A stretch of 64,000 nt of DNA, from contig NZ_WKKE01000009.1 of NCBI RefSeq assembly GCF_009674775.1, positions 1 to 64,000 of the forward strand, written 5' to 3'. Source of the DNA: Flavobacterium sp. LC2016-23. GTDB lineage: Bacteria > Bacteroidota > Bacteroidia > Flavobacteriales > Flavobacteriaceae. The notes under the pieces were generated by a model that ran no database searches, was not told where the DNA came from, and saw only the letters and a program-made list of their open reading frames with translations. The position numbers were made by a program, and so were the translations under genes. Shown piece after piece: positions 49,412 to 64,000 of this stretch (the stretch's first letter is position 1; each line of letters starts with the position of its first letter).

Positions 49412-49476
49412 GACCGCATCCCGATAAGAGGGCAAACATACAGGGTGTACATGCGCCCTCTTATCGGGATGCGGTC
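49412..49476. repeat. REP-like GC-rich palindrome (22-bp perfect arms)
   Basis: Arms at 49412-49433 and 49455-49476 are perfectly complementary (GACCGCATCC... and ...GGATGCGGTC), 21-base loop. The GC-rich tail CGGGCTATCCGCACTACTTC and a later TCCTTCG/CGAAGGA hairpin near 49547-49561 extend the unit to about 49575. The composition contrasts with flanking DNA, and no ORF is present. Confidence 0.8.
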
Positions 49477-59739: not shown

Positions 59740-59822
59740 TTTAAAACAGGTGAAAATTCTTCTTTTTCTTTTGAGTGTATCGTTTAAAAAGGATAATTTT
59801 GATAAACAAACTGAACTTCCCA

Positions 59823-60182
59823 ATGATGAAAAAGCTTACAATGATTTTAATGAGTATGCTGGTATTTTTTGTGATTAATTCCTGTAGTAAACATGAGGAT
59901 GAGGCAATATTTGATTGTCTGGCCGCATCAATTTATATTAAATTGCATAATTCGACGGATCCCAATTTTCCAAAGCTCATGAATTACTCCGTTGAATACA
60001 CCGGGACCGGAACTTTAGTTGAAGTAAAATGGAACTTTGGTGATGGAACCACCGGAGCGGGTACGCTCGTTACCCACTTGTATACTAAGGCAGGAACCTA
60101 TGAGGCTAAGTCCGAGGTTACGATTAGGAAAGAGAGTTCAGAATGTACTTCCGGTCTGAAGAGAACGGTGACGGTGGACTAG
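59823..60182 (+). CDS. Small PKD-domain lipoprotein
   Basis: The protein has 119 residues from MMKKLTMIL; an in-frame GTG at 59775 adds no useful sequence. Lipobox FFVINSC gives a lipid-anchored protein. Residues about 55-115 form a PKD beta domain (VEVKWNFGDGTTGAG, HLYTKAGTYEAKSEVTI), with Cys at both ends possibly in a disulfide. PKD domains mediate protein or glycan contacts on the cell surface. It follows the LysR gene but is not obviously part of that unit. Role unknown. Confidence 0.78.
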   Translation: MMKKLTMILMSMLVFFVINSCSKHEDEAIFDCLAASIYIKLHNSTDPNFPKLMNYSVEYTGTGTLVEVKWNFGDGTTGAGTLVTHLYTKAGTYEAKSEVTIRKESSECTSGLKRTVTVD

Positions 60183-60208: not shown

Positions 60209-60261
60209 GAGAGTCAATTTCGTGATTTATTGCATAGGCATAAATAATGAAATTGACTCTC
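60209..60261 (+). promoter_or_regulatory. Putative operator before the Nudix-peptidase-helicase operon
   Basis: Perfect 13-bp inverted repeat: GAGAGTCAATTTC (60209-60221) and GAAATTGACTCTC (60249-60261), 27-base spacer that itself has partial dyad symmetry. A TATATTTG -7 box (60268-60275) follows directly. There is no T-run, so a terminator is less likely. The half-site resembles that before xylB (AGTCAA plus WTT). Confidence 0.6.
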
Positions 60262-60295
60262 ATTCGTTATATTTGTGAGATATGATTTTTTAATT

Positions 60296-60988
60296 ATGGA
60301 AAATTTTCAAAATATTCGAATTGCTGTTGACGCCATTGTTTTTGGATATAAAAACAACAATTTGTATGTGCTTTTAATCGAACAGAAATTTGGCTCGGCC
60401 GAAAAATACTGGGCTTTACCGGGAGGTTTGGTGAAACCGGAGGAATCTTTAAGCGATGCTGTAATAAGAGAATTGCGTGAAGAAACCAATGTACAGCTGA
60501 CTTTCATGGAGCAGCTTTACACTTTCGGAGATGATATTAAAAGAGATTCCAGAAATCGTGTGATTTCGGTAGCGTATTATGCGCTAGTTGATGCCTCAAA
60601 TCTGGAAATTAAAGCAGATACAGATGCCGAAAAAGTGCAATGGTTTAAAATAGATGAAGTTCCTTCTTTGGCTTTTGATCATAATTTGATCTTAAAAAAA
60701 GCAGTCGAACGATTAAAAGCTAAACTTACTTACGAACCCATTGGTTTTGATTTACTGCCAAAAGAATTTCTGTTTTCTGAACTTGAAAATTTGTATTGTA
60801 CCATTTTGGAAAAGGAAATTGACAGAAGAAATTTCAGGAAAAAGATTCTCAGTTATGGTTTTATAGAAGAAACGGAAATTTTTTCAGCAGTAAAAACCGG
60901 AAGACCGGCAAAATTATTTAAGTTTAATAAATTAAAATATAATGATTTAATAGAAAGAGGTTTTCATTTCGAAATAAAATTTGCTTAA
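60296..60988 (+). CDS. Nudix-HTH regulator (NrtR family) with near-intact Nudix box
   Basis: The protein has 230 residues from the ATG MENFQN; an upstream GTG at 60275 overlaps the -7 box. The Nudix domain (about 8-145) has G44, E50, then R58-E59-L60-R61-E62-E63, a nearly canonical box (Gly replaced by N65), unlike the dead boxes of its two paralogs at 28349-29823. The C-terminal NrtR winged helix (about 148-230) has FDLLPKEFLFSELENLY and GRPAKLFKFNKLKYNDL. NrtR proteins repress their targets and respond to ADP-ribose or related metabolites. It leads a tight operon with a peptidase (12 bases on) and a DUF4011 protein, so it likely regulates those genes and itself. Confidence 0.88.
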   Translation: MENFQNIRIAVDAIVFGYKNNNLYVLLIEQKFGSAEKYWALPGGLVKPEESLSDAVIRELREETNVQLTFMEQLYTFGDDIKRDSRNRVISVAYYALVDASNLEIKADTDAEKVQWFKIDEVPSLAFDHNLILKKAVERLKAKLTYEPIGFDLLPKEFLFSELENLYCTILEKEIDRRNFRKKILSYGFIEETEIFSAVKTGRPAKLFKFNKLKYNDLIERGFHFEIKFA

Positions 60989-60999
60989 ACTACAGTATA

Positions 61000-62202
61000 A
61001 TGATTAAACCATTTCCATTCCATTCCGATTTAAGGGATTATTTTAAAAAGCAGGACAAAACCTGGTCCTGGTTTTCTGAAGAAAAGATTAAAGCAGAACA
61101 GCAAGAAGCCTTTAAAACGGATTTATTAAAAAATTCCTACAGAATAGATCCCGATACGGAACCAAAAGTGTATGAAATCCTGAATGTTGCAAAAGATAAA
61201 TTGGGAATCATTGTTCCGATTACCATCTATCAATCGCAAAGCATGGATGGCAATAATGCCGGAGTTGTTTTTTTTGATAACGAAGCGCATATTATTTTAT
61301 CAGGAACGATTTTAAAACTGCTTAACGAAGACGAATTACTGGTTTTGTTCGGACATGAACTGTCGCATATTGTCTTGTTTAGTTTGGAAAATGGCGATTT
61401 TGAAATTACCAACAGAATTATCAATACCATTGCCAGCGACAGCAGCAGTGAATTGTTTTATTATGAAACGGCAAGATTGTACCAGCTTTATACCGAATTA
61501 TTTTGTGATTTGGGTGCTCTGAAAGTCAGCGGAAGTCTGGAAACTACGATTCAGACCTTGGTAAAATTAAATACCGGATTAGAAAAAGTCTCGGCAGAAA
61601 GTTATCTTAAACAAGCCAACGAAATTCTGGAACGAATAGAAAAAGGATCTAATGGAGAAACGCATCCTGAGAATTTTATTCGCGCGAAAGCTTTGGAAAT
61701 TTTCGAAAAAGACAATTCCGGTTACTATTCGAAAACAGAAAAAATTATTTCGGGAAAAACCGATTTGCATCAACTGAACTTATTTAATAAAAAACTGGTT
61801 TTTGATACTACAAAAGAATTAATCTCGATTATTCTTAAACCAAAATGGGCCCAATCTGAATATTGCCATGCACTTTACAAACAATATTTTGCGAATTCAG
61901 CTATAAGAACCGACGCTTTTATTGATGCTGTTTTCAAACTCAAAATAGAAAACAGCAGGAAAAACTTAAAGGAATATTACGCTTATGTCATGCTCGACTT
62001 TGCCTTATGTGATCCTGATTTGAAAGAAGCATTTATCGGGCATATTCTGGATATTGCGGAGCAATTAAGTCTGCAGGAAGAAATGAAATGGATTCTGAAA
62101 AAGGAATTGAACCTGACGGAGAAAAACTATAAATCATTCGCTGAAAACTGCACGAAGACTTTAAATACTATTTTAGAATCAGATCAGGAAAATACTTATT
62201 AA
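61000..62202 (+). CDS. Cytoplasmic M48-like zinc metallopeptidase
   Basis: The protein has 400 residues, with no signal peptide and no membrane helix, unlike HtpX or Ste24 members of M48. The zinc site HExxH is H119-E120-L121-S122-H123 (VLFGHELSHI), and a likely third ligand E166 in ELFCD with D170 matches the ExxxD of M48. Upstream NNAGVVFFDNEAHIILSGTIL fits the edge strand and substrate cleft. Residues about 200-400 are helical with no recognised domain. It begins 11 bases after the Nudix regulator stop, and the DUF4011 gene starts 1 base after its own stop. A soluble peptidase coupled to a helicase-family protein is unusual. Confidence 0.82.
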   Translation: MIKPFPFHSDLRDYFKKQDKTWSWFSEEKIKAEQQEAFKTDLLKNSYRIDPDTEPKVYEILNVAKDKLGIIVPITIYQSQSMDGNNAGVVFFDNEAHIILSGTILKLLNEDELLVLFGHELSHIVLFSLENGDFEITNRIINTIASDSSSELFYYETARLYQLYTELFCDLGALKVSGSLETTIQTLVKLNTGLEKVSAESYLKQANEILERIEKGSNGETHPENFIRAKALEIFEKDNSGYYSKTEKIISGKTDLHQLNLFNKKLVFDTTKELISIILKPKWAQSEYCHALYKQYFANSAIRTDAFIDAVFKLKIENSRKNLKEYYAYVMLDFALCDPDLKEAFIGHILDIAEQLSLQEEMKWILKKELNLTEKNYKSFAENCTKTLNTILESDQENTY

Positions 62203-62203
62203 G

Positions 62204-64000
62204 ATGATTACACCCATTAAGGAATCCGCTTTTTATCAATTTATCACCGAAAATTTCCAGCGGGGAACTTTTGCCAACGATGATATTATTGCCATAATAT
62301 TACCTTTGCTGAAAACGGTTGCCGCTATTCATAATCAGGGAAAAGTGGCGTCACTGCAGGATATTTCGACTATTTATATCGAAAATCAGCATTTTCATAT
62401 TACGGACAATGCTTTCGAAATAAAAGATAATTCGAAAGCAATTGCGGCGTTTTTTAAAAGTAAAAGTAAAGCGTTTGAAATTTCGGGCGAACATTTTACA
62501 ACCACCGAAATCGGGGAAGGCGTAAAAAGAGAATATGGCGATAAAAGTGTTTCTGAAGAGGATGGTGAAAATGTTAGGAAACCTGCTTACATAAAAGATT
62601 ACGGCTCTTTCGAATTTGAATTCGGTCATCACGATCCGGTGACAGATATTTTTGTTCTGGGAATGATCCTGGCCAGTATCGCATTGCAATTTGATTTTAC
62701 CAATATCGAAGACGTGAAGCGTTTTGTGGAATATCGCAGGAAAATGTATTTCCTGAACAGCAAAATAAATCCTGCAATTGCCAATATTATTTTGGGAATG
62801 ACAGAACTGAATCGCGAGAATCGCTGGAAAGATTTAAATGAAATCGTAGAAAAACTGCAGAATTACAGAGATTACAATCCTGAAACGGAGTATGATTTAT
62901 CAAGTTTAATTGATGCGAAAGTTCAGAATAAAAATCAATTCATTCACGAAAAACTCCGAAACCGATTATTTGATAATAGTAAGCGAAACCGGCTTTTATA
63001 CTTTCAGCCGAATTTAAAATTCCTGAACCTGACCGTTTCTTCGGTTCCGCAGGCATTGAATTATGAAAATATAAATCCGGATGCTATTTTTTACTGGAAT
63101 GCGGAGATTTCAAAGAAAATCAGCAATACCAGTACGATTTCACTCAATAAATATTTAGAATTTCAGGACAATACCTATATCGTTCCTACGCTTGATAAAA
63201 TTCGTTTAGAAGCGAATAAGGACATTAACGAATACGGCTTTAGCCAGTTAAAACTCGTTTTGTGTAACCTGAACTGGTTTAATACCAAAGAAGAAAGTAC
63301 AGAAAAAATAGTTTCACCTTTGCTTCTGGCATCCGTTACGCTGACGAAGAAAAAAGGGGTGAAAGATGATTATTCCTTAGAATTTCTCGATTCTGAAGTG
63401 GAAATAAACCCTGTTTTGGCCAATATGCTAAAAGATTTATATGACATTCGATTACCGGAACGCATACAGCTTTCGGAAACCAAAATCGAAGAAGTTTATG
63501 AATTATTGCGCATACAAGTGGAGAAAAACAGTTCCGGAATTGTTTTGGATTATATCGACAAACCCAAAATAAAACTGATTCATTCGCAGGCCAGGCAAAT
63601 CCTGACACAGTTTAATAAACGCTCCAAAAAGAAGGAAGCCATTCAGGATCAAAAAAATCTGAGTTATTCTTATAAGCCCGAAAATTTTCAGCCGTATGGT
63701 TTAGAATTGTTCCGAAATTATGTTTTTACGAAGGCTTCCTCTTTAGAATACCTGATCAACAGCGATATAAAACAGAACCCGCATTTTTTCAATGAAACCA
63801 AAACCATAGGAAGAGAATTTTACCAGCTTGATGAAGGTGATGTAAATCCTTTCCGTTGGGAATTTGATACCTGCAATTTAATCTTAGGCAATTTTAATTA
63901 TAAAAAAATGTCTTTGGTTCGCGATTACAATCAGGTTATCGAAAATAATGTTGAAAGTAATGTTTTCGGGAATTTGTTCAATTCACTGGCACAAAAAGAG
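62204..64000 (+). CDS. DUF4011-type protein, N-terminal part of a probable SF1 helicase (partial)
   Basis: This ORF runs open to the window edge: 599 codons, no stop. The ATG is one base after the peptidase stop, so the genes are translationally coupled. Residues about 1-235 are an N-terminal region I cannot assign. From about 245 the DUF4011 pattern appears: LRNRLFDNSKRNRLLYFQPN (the LLDxSxRNRLLxF motif), then a PLLLASVTL strand, VEINPVLANMLKDLYDIRLPE, and RWEFDTCNLILGNFNYKKMS. In this family an AAA_11/AAA_12 superfamily 1 helicase core normally follows, often with a C-terminal nuclease-like domain; those lie beyond the window, so they are expected but not seen. Confidence 0.8.
   Translation, partial: MITPIKESAFYQFITENFQRGTFANDDIIAIILPLLKTVAAIHNQGKVASLQDISTIYIENQHFHITDNAFEIKDNSKAIAAFFKSKSKAFEISGEHFTTTEIGEGVKREYGDKSVSEEDGENVRKPAYIKDYGSFEFEFGHHDPVTDIFVLGMILASIALQFDFTNIEDVKRFVEYRRKMYFLNSKINPAIANIILGMTELNRENRWKDLNEIVEKLQNYRDYNPETEYDLSSLIDAKVQNKNQFIHEKLRNRLFDNSKRNRLLYFQPNLKFLNLTVSSVPQALNYENINPDAIFYWNAEISKKISNTSTISLNKYLEFQDNTYIVPTLDKIRLEANKDINEYGFSQLKLVLCNLNWFNTKEESTEKIVSPLLLASVTLTKKKGVKDDYSLEFLDSEVEINPVLANMLKDLYDIRLPERIQLSETKIEEVYELLRIQVEKNSSGIVLDYIDKPKIKLIHSQARQILTQFNKRSKKKEAIQDQKNLSYSYKPENFQPYGLELFRNYVFTKASSLEYLINSDIKQNPHFFNETKTIGREFYQLDEGDVNPFRWEFDTCNLILGNFNYKKMSLVRDYNQVIENNVESNVFGNLFNSLAQKE

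Follow-up and report, generated by a model that had tools for sequence, protein, structure and literature searches.

An M48 peptidase-helicase gene pair inserted in a putative NAD-rebuilding operon of Flavobacterium: a possible stress or anti-virus module not yet described

Introduction

The helicases Hhe, PDC-S37 and ProA are classed as anti-phage proteins, and type I Mokosh is a two-gene system composed of a kinase-helicase, MkoA, and a PLD nuclease, MkoB. The NARP1 pathway (Adps-Namat) turns ADP-ribose and nicotinamide into NAD+; chromosomal versions exist, and their physiological role was stated to be open (PMC12774641). NrtR proteins, in turn, are known to sense ADP-ribose (cited in PMC9503650). 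Here we describe a locus of Flavobacterium sp. LC2016-23 (genome 5.39 Mb) in which relatives of several of these components stand together. It begins near the end of the window, the 64,000-nucleotide stretch that was analysed (positions 1-64000 of contig NZ_WKKE01000009.1), and continues past it: a gene for an M48-like zinc metallopeptidase is followed by one for a DUF4011 helicase, and this pair lies between nrtR, which encodes a putative ADP-ribose-sensing regulator, and the other genes of a NARP1-type operon. An original prediction, made from the sequence of the window, had read the regulator, peptidase and helicase genes as a tight operon that might act as a stress or anti-phage module responding to NAD turnover. 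We find that the peptidase and helicase genes form a conserved two-gene cassette, separate from nrtR, which seems to be a stress or anti-virus module that has not been described before.

A conserved peptidase-helicase pair

Homologues of the peptidase were found at 24 loci when 84,980 species genomes were scanned, and at every one of them a helicase gene lies downstream of the M48 gene on the same strand (adjacent in 23, with a single intervening open reading frame, ORF, in the remaining one). The pair extends from Flavobacterium to Pedobacter, Chitinophagaceae and metagenome-assembled genomes (MAGs) of other Bacteroidota, with identity falling to 36-42%. When 395 genomes of the phylum were scanned with a profile of the helicase N-terminus, only two matched, and these are also the two with a true M48 homologue. 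The regulator is a looser companion: nrtR is found upstream in 16 of the 24 loci and a prs-like gene downstream in 15, and the eight pairs that lack nrtR beside them include the Pedobacter and Chitinophagaceae copies. Furthermore, nrtR directly precedes the prs-like gene in all 12 Flavobacterium genomes examined that lack the cassette. A conserved trio is thus rejected; of the three genes expected to co-occur across genomes, M48 and helicase are conserved neighbors and nrtR is not part of the unit. Distant M48 matches at two further loci (L017 and L018) proved to be common M48-TerB and M48 proteins whose gene surroundings are unrelated.

The peptidase matches Pfam Peptidase_M48 at 30.8 bits (cut-off 20.3), and the HExxH motif that had been noticed in it is borne out: H119, E120 and H123 (HELSH) together with E166 are invariant in an alignment of 18 homologues, one position between the histidines being variable. 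Its AF2 model (predicted local distance difference test, pLDDT, 88.6) resembles ZMPSTE24 (Z 9.7 over 189 residues) and BepA (Z 9.3) across residues 17-240; the C-terminal 150 residues form a helical extension barely covered by the structure search. With HExxH, a distal Glu as zinc ligand and the modeled M48 fold, the protein is assigned to M48.

The original prediction had pointed past position 64000 for SF1 motifs and a nuclease domain; the complete protein has the full SF1 motifs and a domain of nuclease fold. DUF4011 (Pfam, residues 254-409, 49 bits) is followed by AAA_11 (620-742) and AAA_12 (1335-1547), with SF1 motifs spanning 620-742 and 1254-1547, then by a restriction endonuclease (REase)-fold MTES_1575 domain (1603-1698) and a WGR domain (1738-1798, 60 bits) that is present in all homologues. 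Walker A GPPGTGKS, Walker B DEASQ, GDxxQMPP, WHYRS, QGDERD and GGEKRLNVxFSRA are kept across 23 homologues. Among profiles of anti-phage proteins the helicase matches the PADLOC candidate PDC-S37 at 664 bits (over 551-1701), Hhe at 312 and MkoA at 130; against NCBIfam models it scores 629 bits for ProA (cut-off 1500) and 426 for Hhe (NF042953, cut-off 2000).

Does the REase-fold domain still cut? Its catalytic Asp position holds H, N, S or T and its Glu position M, I, L or S in 23 of 23 homologues, never D or E, while Hhe (from a Klebsiella plasmid) and a Klebsiella variicola relative keep both residues (IDLAV/IDLGI and GIECDG/GVECDG). The nuclease is therefore predicted to be dead. A working Hhe-type helicase-nuclease that uses non-canonical residues, with M48 as an accessory or processing enzyme, would fit the match to MTES_1575 at 46 bits (cut-off 38) and the invariance of D1647, D1648, H1651 and an EQY motif, but we consider it improbable given the replacement of both canonical residues in every homologue. 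Another DUF3320/DUF4011-type helicase, on a Bacteroides plasmid (L071, 2119-9208), has kept the REase Asp and lost the Glu; the gene next to it, on the opposite strand, encodes a reverse transcriptase.

At the opposite end of the protein, the AF2 model of residues 1-261 (pLDDT 73) finds only protein kinases as its best structural matches (Foldseek probability about 1.00; Z 14.7 to LIMK1, 14.1 to PknB). The kinase-like region, about residues 1-230, covers mainly the C-lobe. An active kinase would need an N-lobe with Gly-loop and Lys as well as HRD and DFG catalytic residues; the helicase sequence has no N-lobe, and its HRD-like Asp varies among homologues. The model thus points to a pseudokinase-like module.

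The host operon

Close relatives at the locus are Flavobacterium. The three predicted genes were recovered with their coordinates and spacings (11 bases between nrtR and M48, 1 base between M48 and the DUF4011 gene), but they are only the first third of a longer array: six more genes follow in the same direction when the contig is read past 64000, so that nine co-directional genes run from nrtR to "nadV" (Table 1). Beyond nadV, nadD and gmk (Pfam) lie on the opposite strand. Upstream, outside the operon, stands a gene for a PKD-domain lipoprotein, which is missing from several related loci.

Table 1. Features of the locus, in contig coordinates (identical to window coordinates up to 64000)
Feature	Position	Strand	Basis or remark
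PKD-domain lipoprotein gene	59820..60182	+	Pfam PKD; start approximate, ATG codons near 59823; outside operon
Hairpin	60209..60261	.	Perfect 13-bp inverted repeat; arms 60209-60221 / 60249-60261
TATATTTG, Bacteroidota -7-like promoter element of nrtR	60268..60275	+	Sequence and comparison of upstream regions
nrtR-like Nudix-winged-helix gene	60296..60988	+	ATG start; alternative start, GTG at 60275
M48-like zinc metallopeptidase gene	61000..62202	+	Pfam M48, alignment, AF2 model
DUF4011 SF1 helicase gene	62204..67609	+	1801 aa, complete in contig; extends beyond window end at 64000
Ribose-phosphate-pyrophosphokinase-like (Prs-like) gene	67703-68536	+	Pfam
NADAR gene	68533-69072	+	Pfam
Macrodomain gene	69077-69598	+	Pfam
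RNA 2'-phosphotransferase KptA/Tpt1 gene	69610-70167	+	Pfam
ADP-ribosylglycohydrolase (ARH) gene	70176-71126	+	Pfam
NAMPT-family gene "nadV"	71123-72592	+	Pfam

In the cassette-free genomes the same frame recurs, with nadV last after variable cargo. A survey of the interval from the prs-like gene to nadV (loci L033-L044, L012-L014 and L045-L055) found NADAR, macro, KptA, one or two ARH genes, microbial PARG, a calcineurin-like phosphatase and DUF4291, and also adenylosuccinate-synthetase-like and nucleoside-deoxyribosyltransferase-like genes and ORFs of 111 and 291 aa. We began from plain nicotinamide salvage (Prs-NadV) as the function of the two enzymes; this was replaced by NARP1 once the Namat signature was found. 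That signature, GSX-Phi-X-Phi-X-Phi-TRD with aromatic positions 3 and 7 (PMC12774641), is present as GSFTYQYNTRD or GSYTYQYNTRD in 18 of 18 nadV copies, and the nadV product is 59% identical to the characterized Namat of phage SPbetaL1, so the host operon is taken as a chromosomal NARP1-type pathway. Likewise, the best PDB matches of the nadV product are the Namat structures 9W5X/9W5W (614 bits), as against 236 bits for human NAMPT. The Prs-like protein (TIGR01251, 134 bits) is 43% identical to a phage copy that adjoins a Namat-like gene and is a candidate Adps.

The hydrolases of the operon belong to families that release ADP-ribose, the NARP1 substrate, from DNA, RNA or protein; together with NARP1 they would close an ADP-ribose recycling loop. 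A search of the window's own genome for an NADase or ADP-ribosyltransferase (ART) that could explain the operon found no DarT and no TIR_2 match; the operon may therefore counter ADP-ribosylation or NAD+ loss of outside origin. Countering outside ADP-ribosylation would agree with the ARG-centred proposal in section 3.8 of PMC9503650.

Such a setting also invites a repair role, in which helicase and peptidase would clear DNA-stuck proteins or ADP-ribosylated adducts by a Wss1/SPRTN-like division of labor. In PARPs the WGR domain binds DNA ends, and the helicase carries such a domain. The operon encodes presumed removers of ADP-ribose from nucleic acids (NADAR, macro, ARH and KptA) and would rebuild NAD+, and bacterial NARP1 has been proposed to maintain NAD/ADPR homeostasis in the service of nucleic-acid integrity (PMC12774641). 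The peptidase even has a SprT-like Pfam match (21.1 bits) and a SPRTN-type structure, 6mdw, among its structural matches (Z 4.7); however, the former is below its cut-off of 25.6 and M48 fits better in both sequence and fold. Patchy presence and absence would be unusual for core repair, and at the loci examined outside Flavobacterium no ADP-ribose genes lie beside the pair: the neighbors in Pedobacter, for example, are hisS, a DUF6252 gene, an AraC-type helix-turn-helix gene and a short-chain dehydrogenase/reductase gene. On balance, we regard repair as unlikely.

Regulation and insertion site

In the nrtR product a Nudix domain is fused to a winged-helix domain, and both NrtR_WHD (78.4 bits) and NUDIX (71.2 bits) exceed their Pfam cut-offs; the score against the NCBIfam NtrR model, 137.7 bits, is below the cut-off of 400. 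The proposal that the regulator senses an NAD metabolite gains from this resemblance and from its ADP-ribose/NAD gene context, and we describe it as a putative ADP-ribose-sensing repressor of the NARP1-type operon. The protein retains a near-complete Nudix box (GLVKPEESLSDAVIRELREE) and may thus hydrolyze ADP-ribose besides sensing it.

Comparison of the loci in this analysis yielded a palindrome, TGYGTA-N5-TACRCA, which we infer to be the operator bound by NrtR. In the scanned genomes that have both nrtR and prs, the prs-like gene is preceded by two such boxes with a distance of about 52 bp between them. A box also precedes nrtR itself at nine loci (L012, L013, L015, L035, L039, L041, L043, L044 and L059). 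No such box was found before nrtR of the window genome when upstream regions were compared; the perfect pattern occurs there once in 5.39 Mb, at contig 67622-67638, between the helicase stop codon and the prs-like gene.

This box marks the point of insertion. In part of the genus Flavobacterium, the cassette lies precisely after the stop codon of nrtR and ahead of the NrtR box that serves the NARP1 genes. Where the site is empty, the first box overlaps that stop codon (TTTGCGTAATTTTTACACA). Where it is filled, the end of nrtR reads TTTGCTTAA or nearly so, next comes the cassette, and box and promoter are retained behind the helicase. Genomes with a filled and with an empty site are intermixed in the nrtR-prs tree, which indicates that the site changed state several times.

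Two loci depart from this arrangement. At L059 (9269-16622, a Bacteroidetes MAG), a boxed nrtR is followed by M48 and helicase, with no prs-like gene or nadV in the remaining 3 kb; there NrtR could control the cassette alone. At L067 (10001-16612), the M48-helicase pair occupies the same chromosomal place, before nadD/gmk, and nrtR, the prs-like gene and nadV are all missing. The latter locus would suit a passenger, in which the gpsA-nadD interval is simply a variable spot, the pair serves proteostasis or another NAD-unrelated process, and nrtR is an accidental neighbor; the variable cargo of the operon and the missing box before nrtR of the window genome can be read the same way. Yet 15 Flavobacterium-type loci share one site between nrtR and box, always co-directional and with a short gap to nrtR, and L059 retains a boxed nrtR with the pair but no adjacent prs-like gene. 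We hold an accidental association to be quite unlikely.

The perfect 13-bp inverted repeat that had been noticed ahead of nrtR is present, and is beyond chance: perfect repeats of at least 13 bp with a spacer of at most 40 number eight in the 64 kb and none in six simulated windows. Its hairpin has a folding energy of -27.1 kcal/mol (z = -7.9) and begins 27 nt past the stop codon of the PKD lipoprotein gene. An NrtR operator was rejected: in the comparison of upstream regions the hairpin is confined to genomes with the PKD gene, its arms change sequence on both sides in relatives with pairing kept, and the perfect box motif sits elsewhere. A dispersed repeat element was rejected as well, since the repeat is single-copy in the genome. 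A terminator-like hairpin fits better than an operator, and the repeat is probably no regulator site of this operon. Two perfect 22-bp inverted repeats, far above chance, have their left ends at window positions 49412 and 52162.

Possible functions

What, then, might the pair do? The best explanation, which we advance tentatively and rate at a little under even, is that the cassette is a nuclease-dead, protease-coupled relative of Hhe/PDC-S37 docked in a NARP1-type operon. A defence role is plausible. The helicase would translocate on nucleic acid, might use its WGR domain to recognize something abnormal there, for instance DNA ends, and, with its nuclease lost, would act through the M48 peptidase. 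The peptidase could itself be the effector, with a phage or host protein as its target, or it could carry out a processing step once the helicase has activated it. In those genomes in which an NrtR box precedes nrtR, the position of the pair next to nrtR and NARP1 would lead to expression upon NAD+ breakdown. The fuller proposal of a new two-gene defence system, with a DUF4011 helicase minus its nuclease, an M48 effector and NrtR-tied expression on NAD+ breakdown, is possible but somewhat unlikely.

Several observations weigh against these readings: (i) the ten neighbors of the distant copies gave a single PADLOC match, a dGTPase, so that the suggested enrichment in defence islands is not seen; (ii) no copy of the peptidase was found in the phages, plasmids or viral contigs searched, on which ground a mobile or phage-borne cassette was rejected; (iii) the Hhe and ProA scores of the helicase are far below the NCBI equivalog cut-offs; and (iv) the sole perfect NrtR box of the window genome lies behind the helicase gene, which leaves ADP-ribose control of the cassette here putative. 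The dGTPase-family gene (PADLOC, 221 bits) is on the opposite strand beside a Chitinophagaceae copy of the pair (L063, 2082-3440). Overall, the original prediction is partly supported: its domains, its NAD context and the pair held up, and the trio and defence-island enrichment did not; nor is the nuclease site intact or the repeat the NrtR box.

If the favored reading of the cassette as a protease-coupled Hhe/PDC-S37 relative is true, a protease can take the place of the nuclease in an anti-phage helicase family, and bacteria maintain NARP1 operons in their chromosomes, under a repressor that senses ADP-ribose, as docking places for conflict genes. Bacterial NARP1 would also acquire a physiological home, namely NrtR-controlled ADP-ribose recycling with NADAR, macro, ARH and PARG hydrolases as suppliers. 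The host genus is cultivable, which makes every part open to testing.

Comparison with known systems

Searches of an available collection of papers for DUF4011, Hhe, ProA, Mokosh and M48-helicase antiphage systems found no description of the M48-helicase pair. The helicase shares with Hhe, a DUF4011-helicase-Vsr protein, and PDC-S37/ProA the DUF4011 region, the SF1 motifs and a C-terminal REase-fold domain (312-426 bits for Hhe). Unlike these proteins, it has the REase-fold domain without the catalytic Asp and Glu, has gained a kinase C-lobe-like N-terminus and a C-terminal WGR domain, and is always paired with an M48 peptidase gene. Type I Mokosh likewise joins a kinase fold to an SF1 helicase in one protein and has a two-gene layout, the MkoA profile matching over the helicase only; by contrast, the kinase part here is a C-lobe that lacks a conserved catalytic Asp, the partner is a peptidase, and no PLD gene lies beside the helicase, whose neighbors are the M48 and prs-like genes.

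The operon, for its part, resembles the ARG-centred ADP-ribosylation counter-systems of PMC9503650 (section 3.8) in its Nudix-HTH (helix-turn-helix) repressor, ADP-ribosylglycohydrolase, Macro and NADAR, and in an occasional calcineurin-like phosphatase and REase/helicase genes. Those systems pair a Nudix or WYL repressor with ADP-ribosylglycohydrolase and have no ART or sirtuin modifier in the operon; likewise, the present operon combines NrtR and ARH with no ART toxin or sirtuin gene, the exception being KptA, which belongs to the ART superfamily and acts in RNA repair. The systems described in that section come from actinobacteria, planctomycetes and proteobacteria and have rhodanese-phosphatases, common among them but not found in the present operon, and chaperones; the section itself mentions neither an M48-helicase pair nor Namat.

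With NARP1 (PMC12774641), in its phage and chromosomal forms, the operon shares the Prs-like gene and a Nampt homologue with the Namat signature, to which it adds NrtR, tandem NrtR boxes, ADP-ribose hydrolase cargo between the two enzymes and the M48-helicase cassette. RyDEP of phages (PMC13232231) offers a parallel, since there too a NARP1 operon has received an additional gene, whose product makes ADP-ribose for Adps-Namat; however, RyDEP is a phage-borne glycosidase, whereas the cargo here is chromosomal and the M48-helicase pair is no ADP-ribose enzyme.

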